Shown in pieces: positions 3,245 to 36,769 of a DNA stretch of 64,000 nt (positions within the stretch are counted from its first letter, which is position 1; each line of letters starts with the position of its first letter). Source of the DNA: an uncultured Eubacteriales bacterium (GTDB lineage: Bacteria > Bacillota > Clostridia > Christensenellales > CAG-138). The position numbers and the translations under genes were made by a program. Under the pieces are notes generated by a model, which saw only the letters and a program-made list of their open reading frames with translations, made no database searches and was not told the DNA's origin. Where the stretch lies: positions 1 through 64,000 of the forward strand of contig CADACQ010000013.1 in NCBI GenBank assembly GCA_902786465.1. Direction: 5' to 3'.

Positions 3245-3276
3245 GAGCATAAATCTACTGCGAAAAGGGCAAAGCG

Positions 3277-3420
3277 GTATTTGACCTGCGCTTTGGCGCA
3301 GGCAGCAGCCCTCGATCGCTTGCGTGTGAGCCGGGGTGGGATTTGACCTGCGCTGCGGCGCAGGCCATGGGCACGGCTCTGGATCGCCACTGGGGCTTCA
3401 TTCACTACCGAACCCGTTCC
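3277..3420 (-). repeat. degenerate tandem copies of the tRNA-Ser-associated structured repeat
   Basis: A partial copy (3277-3310) and a fuller but decayed copy (3336-3420) of the element that is intact at 3446-3538. The copy at 3336 keeps the GTGGGATTTGA arm, the CCTGCGC/GCGCAGG hairpin and the TTCACTACCGAACCCGTTC block. Its other helices no longer pair: GGGCACGG stands opposite CCGAACCC, and GGATCGCC opposite GGGGCTTC. It has also lost the second outer arm. The units at 3336 and 3446 are 110 bp apart and are separated by a similar CTTGCGTG-containing spacer (3319-3335 and 3429-3445). Confidence 0.8.
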
Positions 3421-3445
3421 CCCAATTACTTGCGTGAAAGTCGGG

Positions 3446-3538
3446 GTGGGATTTGACCTGCGCTGCGGCGCAGGCCATGGGTTCGGCTCTGAAGCCCCAC
3501 CGGGGCTTCATTCACTACCGAACCCGTTCAAATCCCAC
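3446..3538 (-). repeat. structured repeat next to tRNA-Ser, intact copy A
   Basis: A 93-bp element that can fold into a multi-branched structure. The outer helix is GTGGGATTTGA (3446-3456) with TCAAATCCCAC (3528-3538). Inside it are a long arm and a short hairpin. The long arm pairs GGGTTCGG (3479-3486) with CCGAACCC (3518-3525), and GAAGCCCC (3491-3498) with GGGGCTTC (3502-3509). The short hairpin pairs CCTGCGC (3457-3463) with GCGCAGG (3468-3474). A second intact copy lies at 35045-35138 with compensatory changes. It lies downstream of the tRNA-Ser pair, past their terminator. The outer arms resemble the T-arm of tRNA-Ser. Function unknown. Confidence 0.8.
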
Positions 3539-3550
3539 AATTTCGGAGAC

Positions 3551-3588
3551 AAGTTTAAAGGGAGGGTCGTAACCCTCCCTTTAAACTT
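3551..3588 (-). terminator. hairpin terminator following tRNA-Ser(GCU)
   Basis: A perfect 16-bp inverted repeat (3551-3566 with 3573-3588, six-base loop) that starts at the encoded CCA end of the tRNA. The stem is GC-rich at its top and A/T-rich at its base (TTTAAACTT). There is no long T-run, so it may serve as a processing or terminator stem. Confidence 0.65.
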
Positions 3589-3680
3589 GGCGGAGAAAGT
3601 GGGATTTGAACCCACGCACCGGTCATCCCAGTCTACTCCCTTAGCAGGGGAGCCCCTTATAGCCACTTGGGTATTTCTCC
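3588..3680 (-). tRNA. tRNA-Ser (anticodon GCU)
   Basis: On the minus strand the gene starts GGAGAAATACCCAAGTGG and closes with TTTCTCC, a G discriminator and an encoded CCA. The anticodon arm CTCCC-CTGCTAA-GGGAG gives anticodon GCU (codons AGC/AGU). The long variable arm is typical of serine tRNAs. It sits 5 bp downstream of tRNA-Ser(UGA) and is likely transcribed with it. Confidence 0.95.
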
Positions 3681-3685
3681 ATATA

Positions 3686-3773
3686 TGGCGGAGATGGTAG
3701 GATTCGAACCCACGGGCACTTGCATGCCGACGGTTTTCAAGACCGCTTCCTTAGACCACTCGGACACATCTCC
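3686..3773 (-). tRNA. tRNA-Ser (anticodon UGA)
   Basis: It starts GGAGATGTGTCCGAGTGG and closes with CATCTCC, a G discriminator and an encoded CCA. The anticodon arm GCGGT-CTTGAAA-ACCGT gives anticodon UGA (codons UCN). It has a long variable arm. The promoter is at 3809-3837. Confidence 0.95.
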
Positions 3774-6774: not shown

Positions 6775-7126
6775 GTAACGAGCAAGCAGTAAGCCGAGTT
6801 CTGTCACAGGTTTCCCTGCGGACGATTATCTATCTGAGGCCGGCTGTTGCCAGACGGCTCATGCGATTATCAGGAGCGCAGCGGGCCGCTGTTGAATGCT
6901 CCCATTCCAATCTTGCACCGGGTGGGGTTTACATGGCCGATCCGTCGCCGGACCGCCGGTGAGCTCTTGCCTCGCCTTTCCATCCTTGCCTGCCGAAGCG
7001 GGCGGTTTATTTCTGTTGCACTTTCCCTGATGTCGCCATCGCCGGGTGTTACCCGGCACCCTGCCCTGCGGTGCTCGGACTTTCCTCAGCCCTTGAGGGG
7101 CCGCAATCGTCTTGCTTACTCGTTAC
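6775..7126 (-). ncRNA. rnpB: RNase P RNA, bacterial type A
   Basis: About 352 nt on the minus strand. It contains the universally conserved GAGGAAAGTCCGAGCACC near the 5' end and CAGAACTCGGCTTA near the 3' end, plus GCAACAGAAATAAACC in the middle. The ends pair to form helix P1 (GTAACGAG at 7126-7119 with CTTGCTCGTTAC ending at 6775). This is the catalytic RNA that trims tRNA 5' leaders. It sits inside a run of minus-strand protein genes, 10 bp after the zinc-ribbon gene and 30 bp before the isomerase gene. A T-rich stretch (ATTTTTATTT) follows P1. No separate strong promoter was found. Confidence 0.96.
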
Positions 7127-34907: not shown

Positions 34908-34996
34908 GGAGACGTATCGAAGTGGTCATAACGGGGCTGACTCGAAATCAGTTTGCGTGAAAGCGCACGTGGGTTCGAATCCCACCGTCTCCGCCA
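34908..34996 (+). tRNA. tRNA-Ser (anticodon CGA)
   Basis: It starts GGAGACGTATCGAAGTGG and closes CGTCTCC, a G discriminator and an encoded CCA. The anticodon arm CTGA-CTCGAAA-TCAG gives anticodon CGA (codon UCG). It has a long variable arm. A strong terminator follows directly. Confidence 0.95.
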
Positions 34997-35031
34997 AAAA
35001 CAAAACCACCCAACCGGGTGGTTTTGTTTTT
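34997..35031 (+). terminator. terminator of tRNA-Ser(CGA)
   Basis: CCACCC and GGGTGG form the core stem (loop AACC), extended by AAAAC/GTTTT pairing, followed by TTTTGTTTTT. It starts at the CCA end. Confidence 0.93.
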
Positions 35032-35044
35032 GGCTATTGGAGAC

Positions 35045-35138
35045 GGTGGATTCGAACGGGTTCGGTAGTGAATGAAGCGCCTGTGGCGCTTCAGAGCCGA
35101 GCCCATGGCCCGCCGCGCACGGCGGGTCGAATCCCACC
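35045..35138 (+). repeat. structured repeat next to tRNA-Ser, intact copy B
   Basis: The second intact copy of the element found at 3446-3538, here on the plus strand downstream of tRNA-Ser(CGA). Helices: outer GGTGGATTCGA (35045-35055) with TCGAATCCCACC (35127-35138, one bulged C); GGGTTCGG (35058-35065) with CCGAGCCC (35097-35104); GAAGCGCC (35074-35081) with GGCGCTTC (35085-35092); CCCGCCG (35109-35115) with CGGCGGG (35120-35126). The GAAGCxCC, CCyGCsx and ATTyGA helices differ from copy A by paired changes. GGAGACGGTGGATTCGAAC at its left edge is the inverted 3' end of the neighbouring tRNA-Ser. Confidence 0.85.
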
Positions 35139-35354
35139 CCAGCTTACACGTACCCCCCTGGGGGCCGCAAGCCACCCGCCTAGTATCTTTCTTTGTTGGA
35201 GTTCAATCAAAACCTTAGGTTTGGAAAATGATACTTTTAATCCAAGTTGTCTTATTATTTCTTTACCGTTATCCACGCACATGATATAATTATGTTTAAG
35301 ATTATGTCTATTCTTGTTTTTGCCTCTATTCTTTTGATTCGGGAGGGAAGAATA

Positions 35355-36758
35355 ATGCCTTATACTGAGATTTCGAGAAAGCCTTATAAGTCGCCCTGCG
35401 CATGCGGTAATGGATTCTTGCGTTTTTATATAATAACAAAAGAAAACGATACTGATTATGTTAAAACTATAGAGAAAAAAACTGAAGTAGAGATCCTATG
35501 CGATTATTGCAAAAACAATTATCATTTCGAATGGTCAGATGATGAATGTGGATTTCTTGTCCCAAATGGTTTAACTTTTCCTCCTAGAATTCCTTATCTT
35601 GATAGTAAATATGATTACACTACAGATGAAAAGTTTATCGGCAACCACGATAAAGGTGTTATTGAGAAAATGATTTCTGATATGACTGCGCCTAAGCATA
35701 GATTTATTCAAGACCTTACATTCGAACCTGCAATTGCTTTTGCAAATAATTGGGCATATAGAACAAAAAAACGCTCTTTAGCGCCAATGGTCAAATATCT
35801 TGAGAAAACTCTATCTAATTATGATGCTATATTCACATCGCGCGCAAATAAAGAACCACATAATATTGAATACAAAAAACAGCATGAAGATAGAATACAG
35901 CGAATTGAACAAGTTAAGAACCAGAGCTATAAAGCAAATTTTGTATTTGATTCAGAACAAGATGAGATTGACCACGCGAAAGCTCGGAAAGAAAGAATTG
36001 CTCATCAATACGATCCTTTTCAAGCTATGGTGACTTATCATAATTCATATAAGGTTGATGCGACTGGACGTTATTGGGACACCCTTCATATTCTAAAATG
36101 CGTTGAACCACGATATTTTGTACAAGAAAGCGCTTATCATCTTTCTATTGTAAAAAGGTATCTATGCAAGTGCACAATATGCAACAAGAAGCTGGTTGTT
36201 ACTTCATCTGATTTTGAAATATTATATGATGAATACGAAGGATACTTTCCTGCAGTTAAGTGTGACTGCCATATAGTATCATCATTTGAGGCAAAAGCAA
36301 TGGATATCCTTAATCGCTTAGGGATTTCATATGCGCGCGAGTACTCATTTGACGATTTAGTTGGTAACAAAGATGTACCGTTACGTTTTGATTTTGCAAT
36401 ATTTGAACCAGATTCACAACATAATAATTCCAGTAAAAAGATTCGACTGCTAATCGAATTGCAAGGCCCACATCATTATACGCGTGGCATATATGATAAA
36501 GATGGTAATTTTATAGAAGATAAAAGAGGAACATCTTTTTCCGCCAGAATTCGACTAAATAAGCAAAAATGCTATGATGGTTTGAAGCAACAATACTGCA
36601 AGGAGCACGAGATCATTTTAGAAACCATAAAACACGATGAAAGCGATTATACTACACTGGAAAAGCGACTGATAGATATTCTGAATCAAAATGGTTTTAA
36701 TTGCAAGCAGGCTGAATTATATATTGACTCGGAAGAAGATTTGTTTGATCTTGATTAG
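35355..36758 (+). CDS. AT-rich gene: zinc-ribbon protein with probable PD-(D/E)XK nuclease domain
   Basis: A 467-residue protein. Its codon use is very AT-rich, unlike all neighbours, so it was probably acquired. The N-terminal zinc ribbon is CACGNGFLRF plus CDYCKNNYHF; a second ribbon is CKCTICNKKLV plus CDC near residue 290-315. The C-terminal 140 residues look like a PD-(D/E)XK nuclease: GISYAREYSFDDL, then LRFDFAIFEP (Asp), then RLLIELQGPHHY (E-x-Q) and a basic helix NKQKCYDGLKQQYCKEH. This arrangement resembles treble-clef/zinc-ribbon nucleases with a terminal D...E-x-Q core often found in phage or defence loci. I chose the ATG at 35355 (MPYTEISRKP) because GGGAGGG lies 7-10 nt upstream. 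There is no integrase or partner gene. Function unknown. Confidence 0.7.
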   Translation: MPYTEISRKPYKSPCACGNGFLRFYIITKENDTDYVKTIEKKTEVEILCDYCKNNYHFEWSDDECGFLVPNGLTFPPRIPYLDSKYDYTTDEKFIGNHDKGVIEKMISDMTAPKHRFIQDLTFEPAIAFANNWAYRTKKRSLAPMVKYLEKTLSNYDAIFTSRANKEPHNIEYKKQHEDRIQRIEQVKNQSYKANFVFDSEQDEIDHAKARKERIAHQYDPFQAMVTYHNSYKVDATGRYWDTLHILKCVEPRYFVQESAYHLSIVKRYLCKCTICNKKLVVTSSDFEILYDEYEGYFPAVKCDCHIVSSFEAKAMDILNRLGISYAREYSFDDLVGNKDVPLRFDFAIFEPDSQHNNSSKKIRLLIELQGPHHYTRGIYDKDGNFIEDKRGTSFSARIRLNKQKCYDGLKQQYCKEHEIILETIKHDESDYTTLEKRLIDILNQNGFNCKQAELYIDSEEDLFDLD

Positions 36759-36769
36759 TTCTTCTCTAC

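Follow-up and report, generated by a model that had tools for sequence, protein, structure and literature searches.

To our knowledge, recognition of a single-strand fold by a tyrosine recombinase has few natural examples, namely the integron attC sites and some filamentous phages. In the integron attC site, a single strand folds into two stacked helices, leaving signature bases unpaired and an apical part free, and its R' and R'' boxes read GTTRRRY / RYYYAAC. In the filamentous phages, a folded single-strand attP imitates a double-stranded host site and is joined at dif by the host Xer tyrosine recombinase. Tandem repeats behind a tRNA gene, each with a copy of the tRNA 3' end, occur as the 178-bp repeats of E. 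coli tyrT (rtT RNA). Prokaryotic islands usually insert into tRNA and tmRNA genes, and in genomic islands and IMEs located in these genes (Islander; PMC4383910) a duplicated 3' tail of the target marks the far end.

The elements analysed here form a small, abundant and mostly gene-less family that copies the end of the local tRNA in both orientations and seems to act as folded DNA; no description of such an element was found in a collection of open-access literature, searched by titles and the beginnings of abstracts. Like integron attC sites and cassettes, they appear to combine a folded strand, one-gene cassettes and stacking at a fixed receiving site. Unlike them, the unit ends read GTTCGAA/TTCGAAC and not GTTRRRY / RYYYAAC (compared by eye), the receiving sites are many tRNA genes, most units are gene-less, and the integron integrase (TIGR02249) was over its cut-off in none of the 12 genomes of the genus (best 49.5 bits against 265). 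The likeness to Xer-using filamentous phages lies in a folded strand that would imitate a host site and in an XerS-like recombinase of the genus, a candidate for this role only, whereas the receiving sites are tRNA/tmRNA 3' ends instead of dif. As in tRNA-targeting islands and IMEs, the 3' end of the target is duplicated at the far end (the own RNA comes first among the 18 types for 84 of the 102 copies), but the units measure about 110-160 bp, lack an integrase, possess an inverted tail copy and a core hairpin, and are stacked in tandem at many tRNAs per genome. The E. coli tyrT repeats similarly hold the 3' end of the tRNA in front of them; the present units differ in having no Rfam match, many tRNA types, a hairpin core and DNA-type covariation. 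REP/BIME sequences and their RAYT (Y1) transposases also involve short intergenic hairpins in many copies that are probably mobilised in trans, and many off-tRNA copies of our core sit in REP-like palindromes, although the Y1 transposase (PF01797) is present in only two of the 12 genomes and the unit ends are matched to tRNA. MITEs, finally, are likewise small and non-coding with inverted ends, but here the inverted ends are the sequence of the target itself and therefore vary with the insertion site.

The window refers to the whole stretch of DNA analysed, 64,000 nucleotides from an uncultured Eubacteriales bacterium. The original prediction had placed two copies of the element in it, at 3446-3538 (minus strand) and 35045-35138 (plus strand), just downstream of tRNA-Ser genes and their terminators. 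Both copies, together with the tRNA-Ser genes and terminator-like hairpins in front of them, were confirmed from the sequence. Three things came in addition, namely a decayed second copy and a remnant at the first locus, outer arms matched to the tRNA, and many further host RNAs. The features are as follows, with core positions taken from a model (R1) that is described below.

3588-3773, minus strand: pair of tRNA-Ser(TGA) and tRNA-Ser(GCT) genes, upstream of the units of the first locus
3588-3680, minus strand: tRNA-Ser(GCT); the element copies its 3' end GTTCAAATCCCACTTTCTCCGCCA
3551-3587, minus strand: terminator-like hairpin between tRNA-Ser(GCT) and the element (sequence and folding)
3526-3538, minus strand: inverted copy of the tRNA-Ser(GCT) 3' end GTGGGATTTGAAC, the 5' strand of the outer helix
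3477-3531, minus strand: core hairpin (model R1)
3517-3525 with 3479-3487, minus strand: core stem 1
3511-3516 (AGTGAA) with 3488-3489 (GA), minus strand: core loop
3502-3510 with 3490-3498, minus strand: core stem 2
3457-3474, minus strand: second hairpin CCTGCGCCGCAGCGCAGG (sequence and DNA folding)
3446-3456, minus strand: direct tail copy, confined to the T-arm part of the tRNA 3' end TCAAATCCCAC
3336-3421, minus strand: decayed second tandem unit (BLAST 3336-3419; core match 3367-3421)
3276-3303, minus strand: what remains of a third unit, with only its second hairpin and tRNA end (BLAST)
34908-34996, plus strand: tRNA-Ser(CGA), upstream of the element of the second locus
34997-35031, plus strand: terminator-like hairpin (sequence and folding)
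35039-35138, plus strand: whole element of the second locus
35039-35057, plus strand: inverted copy of the tRNA-Ser(CGA) 3' end GGAGACGGTGGATTCGAAC
35052-35106, plus strand: core hairpin (model R1, 79.7 bits)
35109-35126, plus strand: second hairpin CCCGCCGCGCACGGCGGG (sequence and DNA folding)
35127-35138, plus strand: direct tail copy, confined to the T-arm part of the tRNA 3' end TCGAATCCCACC
35150-36768, plus strand: A+T-rich segment of about 1.6 kb behind the unit, with a 503-aa reading frame (35247-36758)

The common fold proposed for the two copies was recovered by RNA folding as an outer helix, a two-part long arm and a second hairpin, and single-stranded DNA folding gave the same shape with z values of -8.7 and -6.1, none of 200 shuffles being as stable. 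The paired substitutions previously listed between the copies are present, and the right end of both copies retains T-arm parts only. The outer arms had been likened to the T-arm of tRNA-Ser; they do match the neighbouring tRNA, so that the difference between ATTTGA/TCAAAT and ATTCGA/TCGAAT follows the T-loops of the two tRNA-Ser genes, but tRNA-Ser proved to be only one host of many. At the gathering score, no Rfam family was found over either element in the whole window, and a search of the first locus at E up to 10 returned weak sub-threshold matches only. An ordinary class A RNase P RNA (271.5 bits) lies elsewhere in the window, at 6775-7122.

The A+T-rich segment behind the second unit has a GC content of 34-43% (in 500-base steps) against 61-65% on either side and is foreign-looking. 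Its reading frame has a weak likeness, below the cut-off, to PF21991 (cap-snatching endonuclease), and no second tRNA tail was found flanking the segment. The genes of relatives differ at this place, with a variant unit and no gene in genome G011, a different gene in common in G002 and G010, and another in G004.

Using the first copy as query, BLAST found 11 places in its own genome and matches in 14 of 61 genomes, including each of the 12 genomes of the genus. Model R1 was built from an alignment of 28 copies, without gaps, over 55 columns of the core. In this alignment 95.0% of the cells are paired (shuffled mean 81.4%) and two-sided changes occur at 14 of the 18 pairs (shuffled 6.0); none of 500 shuffles equalled either value, bearing in mind that sequence kinship can inflate such statistics. 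Pairing fell to 33-51% when the structure was slid along the alignment. The earlier view that the fold is maintained is borne out by this covariation. The invariance of the asymmetric AGTGAA/GA loop was read from this one alignment, in which its second column position varies between A and G, and the regular expressions used later require the loop and so add no independent support for it.

The original prediction had proposed a search of this and related genomes with a covariance model, with a lack of further copies or of covariation counting against it. Further copies and covariation were both found. At E up to 0.01, model R1 found 5-21 copies in each of the 12 genomes of the genus, and under stricter filters it also found the core in other genera, with 42 of 103 genomes and five of 26 genera at the family level, and 15 of 297 genomes and eight of 125 genera in a sample of the order. 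A scan of named GTDB contigs for the core pattern gave at least 119 stretches; among the matches listed, 79 of 80 stretches carry clostridial names (Oscillospiraceae, Clostridiales, Clostridia, Ruminococcaceae and others) and one is named 'uncultured bacterium', while many of the contig titles name ruminant hosts. Thirteen stretches with the core were found in viral contigs, and a blastn search of plasmid and cultured-phage collections gave no match. The hairpin family is widespread across uncultured gut and rumen clostridia.

Placement was examined in 88 stretches from nine of the 12 genomes of the genus, which contain 119 matches to model R1. ARAGORN identified an upstream tRNA for 95 copies, on the same strand in all 95, and at six loci a tmRNA takes the place of the tRNA for seven further copies. 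Hence 102 of the 119 copies lie at most 700 nt behind a tRNA (17 types) or tmRNA on the same strand, the 17 copies left out being at contig ends, tRNA fragments or genes, or more than 700 nt from a tmRNA. The core starts 44-63 nt after the RNA end in 63 of the 102 copies. One further core starts at 29 nt, four (all behind tRNA-Cys) start at 91-98 nt, and 34, many of which are later tandem copies, at more than 100 nt. The hosts in the genus sample are Ala, Arg, Cys, Gln, Glu, Gly, Leu, Lys, Pro, Ser, Trp and Val tRNAs and tmRNA. In a further set of 98 loci, taken from GTDB and other genera and in part from the same genus, 45 of 95 cores lie at most 400 nt behind a tRNA or tmRNA on the same strand, and Asp, Tyr and Met tRNAs and further isoacceptors are added as hosts. 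A specific association with tRNA-Ser, as originally suggested, is therefore not upheld.

A second class of the same core has no tie to tRNA and occurs in clostridial MAGs and viral contigs. Among the matches listed, the 86 exact cores in 80 GTDB loci comprise 29 with a REP-like left end, 45 with a T-arm-like one and 12 with neither, and the REP-like kind predominates among the viral-contig copies. The cores of this second class (L286-L298 and 29 of the 86 exact cores of L167-L246) sit in REP-like palindromes with other ends, such as GGGTAGCGAAGCG ... GACCGAGCCGCAGCGAGAC. One viral contig (L286) carries two T-arm-type units in its last 320 bases, next to genes that resemble phage structural and lysin genes by eye, and these units are perhaps near a prophage attachment site. 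At three loci (L089, L096, L140) the units follow 3' fragments of tRNAs whose 5' half is not recognisable; these may be scars of other tRNA-targeting elements.

The complete unit is about 110-160 bp long and gene-less, and consists of a terminator-like hairpin, an inverted tail (mostly the T-arm part alone), a core with the AGTGAA/GA loop, a second hairpin and a direct tail. We compared the flanks of the 102 copies with the 3' end of each of the 18 RNA types (17 tRNA types and tmRNA), for which about six of 102 own-best assignments are expected by chance. The own RNA was the best of the 18 at the direct right end in all but 18 copies and at the inverted left end in 57; it was best at both ends in 45 and at neither in six. 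In the window, the own tRNA ranks first of 18 at the inverted end of both loci, and second (first locus) and first (second locus) at the direct end. The T-arm part of the own tail is found at 75% identity or more in the left arm of 89 and the right arm of 80 of the 102 copies, while it is strictly own-best in only 40 and 45, respectively, since T-arms are alike among the types. The acceptor part is found at the right in 56 copies (own-best in 39) and at the left in 16 (own-best in 13). Such a distribution, with the T-arm part in both arms and the acceptor part mainly in the right one, would be expected were the T-arm helix the functional element, with the remainder left over from the duplication.

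The unit ends are thus tRNA sequence, usually that of the local tRNA, and the core is of separate origin and is also found away from tRNAs. With respect to the mobile tRNA-derived element considered originally, mobility is kept among the options, but only the ends are derived from tRNA. Variant cores without the AGTGAAT motif (e.g. GCCGCGTTAAGAAAACGCC) were observed between inverted and direct tRNA ends at five loci (L103, L138, L100, L015, L112). The middle part of the unit is exchangeable, since cores of other make-up fill the same place between the tails.

The kind of paired change found in the core bears on whether DNA or RNA is folded. In 192 unique cores, the variable pairs of stem 2 comprise 1126 Watson-Crick, 6 G-U, 11 A-C and 9 other combinations, and the corresponding counts in 68 unique cores from structure-blind pattern scans are 392, 2, 8 and 6. 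For stem 1, the counts are 1016, 25, 16 and 31 in the 136 of 192 cores that are well paired (at least seven of eight tolerable pairs) and 1293, 42, 27 and 174 in all 192 cores unfiltered. In the tRNAs of the same loci, taken as a control (110 of 120 unique tRNAs), G-U exceeds A-C by 42 to 3 in the acceptor stems and by 43 to 7 in the T stems. An RNA made from either strand would tolerate one of the two wobbles; as stem 2 favours neither and only a slight G-U lead remains in stem 1, we infer that a DNA strand folds or that the palindromes are corrected as DNA. The tolerance of G-U wobbles in conserved stems that is expected of structured RNA was not observed, and DNA folding with nearly Watson-Crick-only covariation would fit recombination of one folded strand, as at attC. 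The object is likely to be a folded DNA strand rather than an RNA, and the unit would act as a folded single strand. Of the options raised originally, a structured DNA target is retained and a small RNA is no longer a first choice, there being no G-U excess of the tRNA-stem kind.

Units repeat in tandem, each with its terminator-like hairpin, inverted tail, core, second hairpin and tail. Coding stretches between two tRNA-end copies were found at four loci (in genomes G006, G000, G008 and G085). At the tmRNA locus, G001 has units in the order A-B and G006 in the order B-A followed by a stretch with a 47-aa frame, absent from G001, and then B'. The tRNA-Trp locus of G000, read across contigs C43 and C15, which overlap at their ends, has tRNA, unit, tail, a gene that is GNAT-acetyltransferase-like by eye, unit and tail; its far-right tail is of the variant form that occurs in the tRNA of G004, and its tRNA and inner tail are of the common form. 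At tRNA-Glu in G008, a repeat of second hairpin and tail flanks two frames, one of which is YpsA/SLOG-like below the cut-off and the other without a Pfam match. In G085, which belongs to another genus, a GNAT gene (PF12746, 1.1e-75) lies between two units behind a tmRNA. No integrase was found by eye in the cargo stretches read (the two G008 frames and the G085 frame were also scanned with Pfam), nor any recombinase by eye among the genes between the paired cores of L288 and L174. A tRNA-Leu locus (L216) has a small gene followed by a terminator and core, with no clear final tail.

A wide reading of these loci as an 'integron array' is weakened by a scan of 40 downstream stretches, 34 of which showed both a core and a tRNA or tmRNA, as single-contig tails behind a coding stretch were found only at G006 tmRNA and G008 tRNA-Glu. 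In one further stretch (L366), a tail-like word with two mismatches lies 5.3 kb on. A 10-kb insert at tRNA-Val in G010 was rejected as unit cargo; this unrelated element (L403, G010:C1:33300-45500) sits inside the terminator hairpin behind the tRNA and encodes a 570-aa protein of large serine-recombinase type (by eye). A cassette-specific start (the CCTCTTTTGTCTACC hairpin), suspected from L085, L008/L009 and L216, directly follows the tmRNA in L071 and is a common terminator, and a cassette end motif was seen just before a unit in those three loci only. A terminator-like hairpin follows the last tail in L251, L407 and L085, while most final tail copies have no second terminator after them by eye, the tRNA-Cys loci excepted; a search for a unit-specific type of terminator was uninformative.

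Core likeness at variable positions is 0.665 between copies at the same tRNA in other genomes, against 0.580 for other tRNAs of the own genome and 0.593 for other tRNAs of other genomes, and none of 300 label shuffles gave a same-tRNA value as high. Most copies were therefore inherited in place, and no recent spread inside a genome is apparent. One sign of travel is provided by the tmRNA and tRNA-Val units of G008, which have a common distal left end and a local T-arm part. No empty and filled pair of one site was found at tRNA-Val, the only locus searched, where the flanks are rearranged.

The enzyme search covered four families (Phage_integrase, Y1 transposase, RVT_1 and integron integrase). 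Neither the Y1 transposase nor the reverse transcriptase RVT_1, which was likewise found in only two of the 12 genomes of the genus, is conserved. Phage_integrase matches occur in all 12 genomes. The most widely held of these recombinases, found in 10 of 12, is XerS-like (185.7 bits against a cut-off of 267 for the one copy scanned) and lies beside a conserved neighbour gene in seven of the nine loci in which the frame was displayed. It is probably a housekeeping Xer, in view of its wide occurrence and this neighbour. A host Xer that acts on the folded strand would be the boldest candidate for the enzyme.

The explanation we prefer, with belief and doubt in even balance, is that the units are non-autonomous mobile DNA hairpins that enter at the T-arm/3' end of tRNA and tmRNA genes and undergo recombination in the form of folded DNA. 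The inverted and direct tRNA ends would pair into a helix of about 12 bp that reproduces the T-arm half of the tRNA gene, and a tyrosine-recombinase-like enzyme, supplied in trans, would join the folded unit to the real T-arm. The incoming unit would provide a new identical tRNA tail and terminator, and the old tail, displaced to the distal side of the unit, would become the direct copy. Survival would be limited to units with a tail that restores the tRNA, and in this way the ends would stay matched to the local tRNA. Tandem copies may later shuffle by ordinary recombination, and genes may occasionally be carried between two tail copies. In its favour are the covariation without a clear G-U excess, the same-strand placement behind tRNAs, the match of the ends to the own tRNA, the T-arm part in both arms, the tandem units, the terminator-like hairpin after the last tail in L251, L407 and L085, the coding stretches between tails and the G004-type far-right tail at tRNA-Trp of G000. 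Several observations count against this explanation: no enzyme was found among the families searched, no empty and filled pair was found at tRNA-Val, most cores are inherited in place, 18 of the 102 right ends do not have their own tRNA as the best match, and stem 1 retains its slight G-U lead. In addition, simple insertion before the native terminator predicts a second terminator after the final tail, which is usually absent, and the tRNA-Trp case of G000 requires a further conversion of the tRNA tail. The swapped unit order in G006 and G001 is weakened as evidence of movement, since unequal recombination alone suffices.

The main rival, which we consider unlikely even so, is that the units are made and kept by replication without a dedicated enzyme. 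The terminator hairpin would let the new strand fold back and copy the tail inverted, later switches would add the direct copy, intrastrand copying would keep the hairpins perfect and slippage would give tandem copies. At some loci (e.g. L139, L094, L098) the tRNA tail, terminator and inverted tail can form a continuous palindrome centred on the terminator loop; changes restricted to Watson-Crick pairs are the expected product of palindrome correction, the cores are inherited in place and no enzyme was found among the families searched. What replication leaves unexplained is the presence of one AGTGAA/GA-loop core at many tRNA types, in many taxa and at off-tRNA places, as well as the gene-bearing stretches between tails.

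A bolder extension, to which we assign a rather low probability, is an integron-like cassette system in which tRNA and tmRNA genes would serve as receiving sites. A recombinase would join the folded strand, with its T-arm-mimicking outer helix, to the matching tRNA gene at the T-arm, and the tRNA would stay functional owing to the tail and terminator that the strand brings in. If true, this would amount to a platform spread over many sites of one genome.

It is improbable that the units are leftovers of ordinary tRNA-targeting islands, phages or integrative elements, with direct tails as attR scars and the core as a repeat near the element ends. Genes are present at some sites, a pair of copies lies at the end of the viral contig L286, and islands in tRNA and tmRNA genes are known to be marked at their end by a displaced 3' fragment of the target (PMC4383910). 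Against this stand the 5-21 copies per genome, the narrow placement of 63 of 102 cores behind the RNA, the mostly cargo-free units and the lack of an integrase, by eye, in the cargo stretches read. An inverted target tail is also not known to belong to a normal attR.

A functional RNA within the 3' trailer of the tRNA, such as an anti-tRNA switch on maturation, would account for the fixed strand and distance behind tRNAs, the strong RNA fold of the first copy and the complementarity of the inverted tail to the tRNA tail, but is very improbable given that neither strand sense has a clear G-U excess, that a terminator-like hairpin separates the tRNA from the element, that copies without a tRNA exist and that no Rfam family matches.

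Counting G-U against A-C changes, with tRNA stems as a control, is an inexpensive test of general use for separating DNA hairpins from RNA genes when screening for covariation. As for the mobile hairpins that we prefer, the 17 tRNA types and tmRNA provide ready-made natural variants for testing mobilisation of a folded strand. If the units are mobilised in this form, the family would join the few cases of folds that are read by a recombinase.
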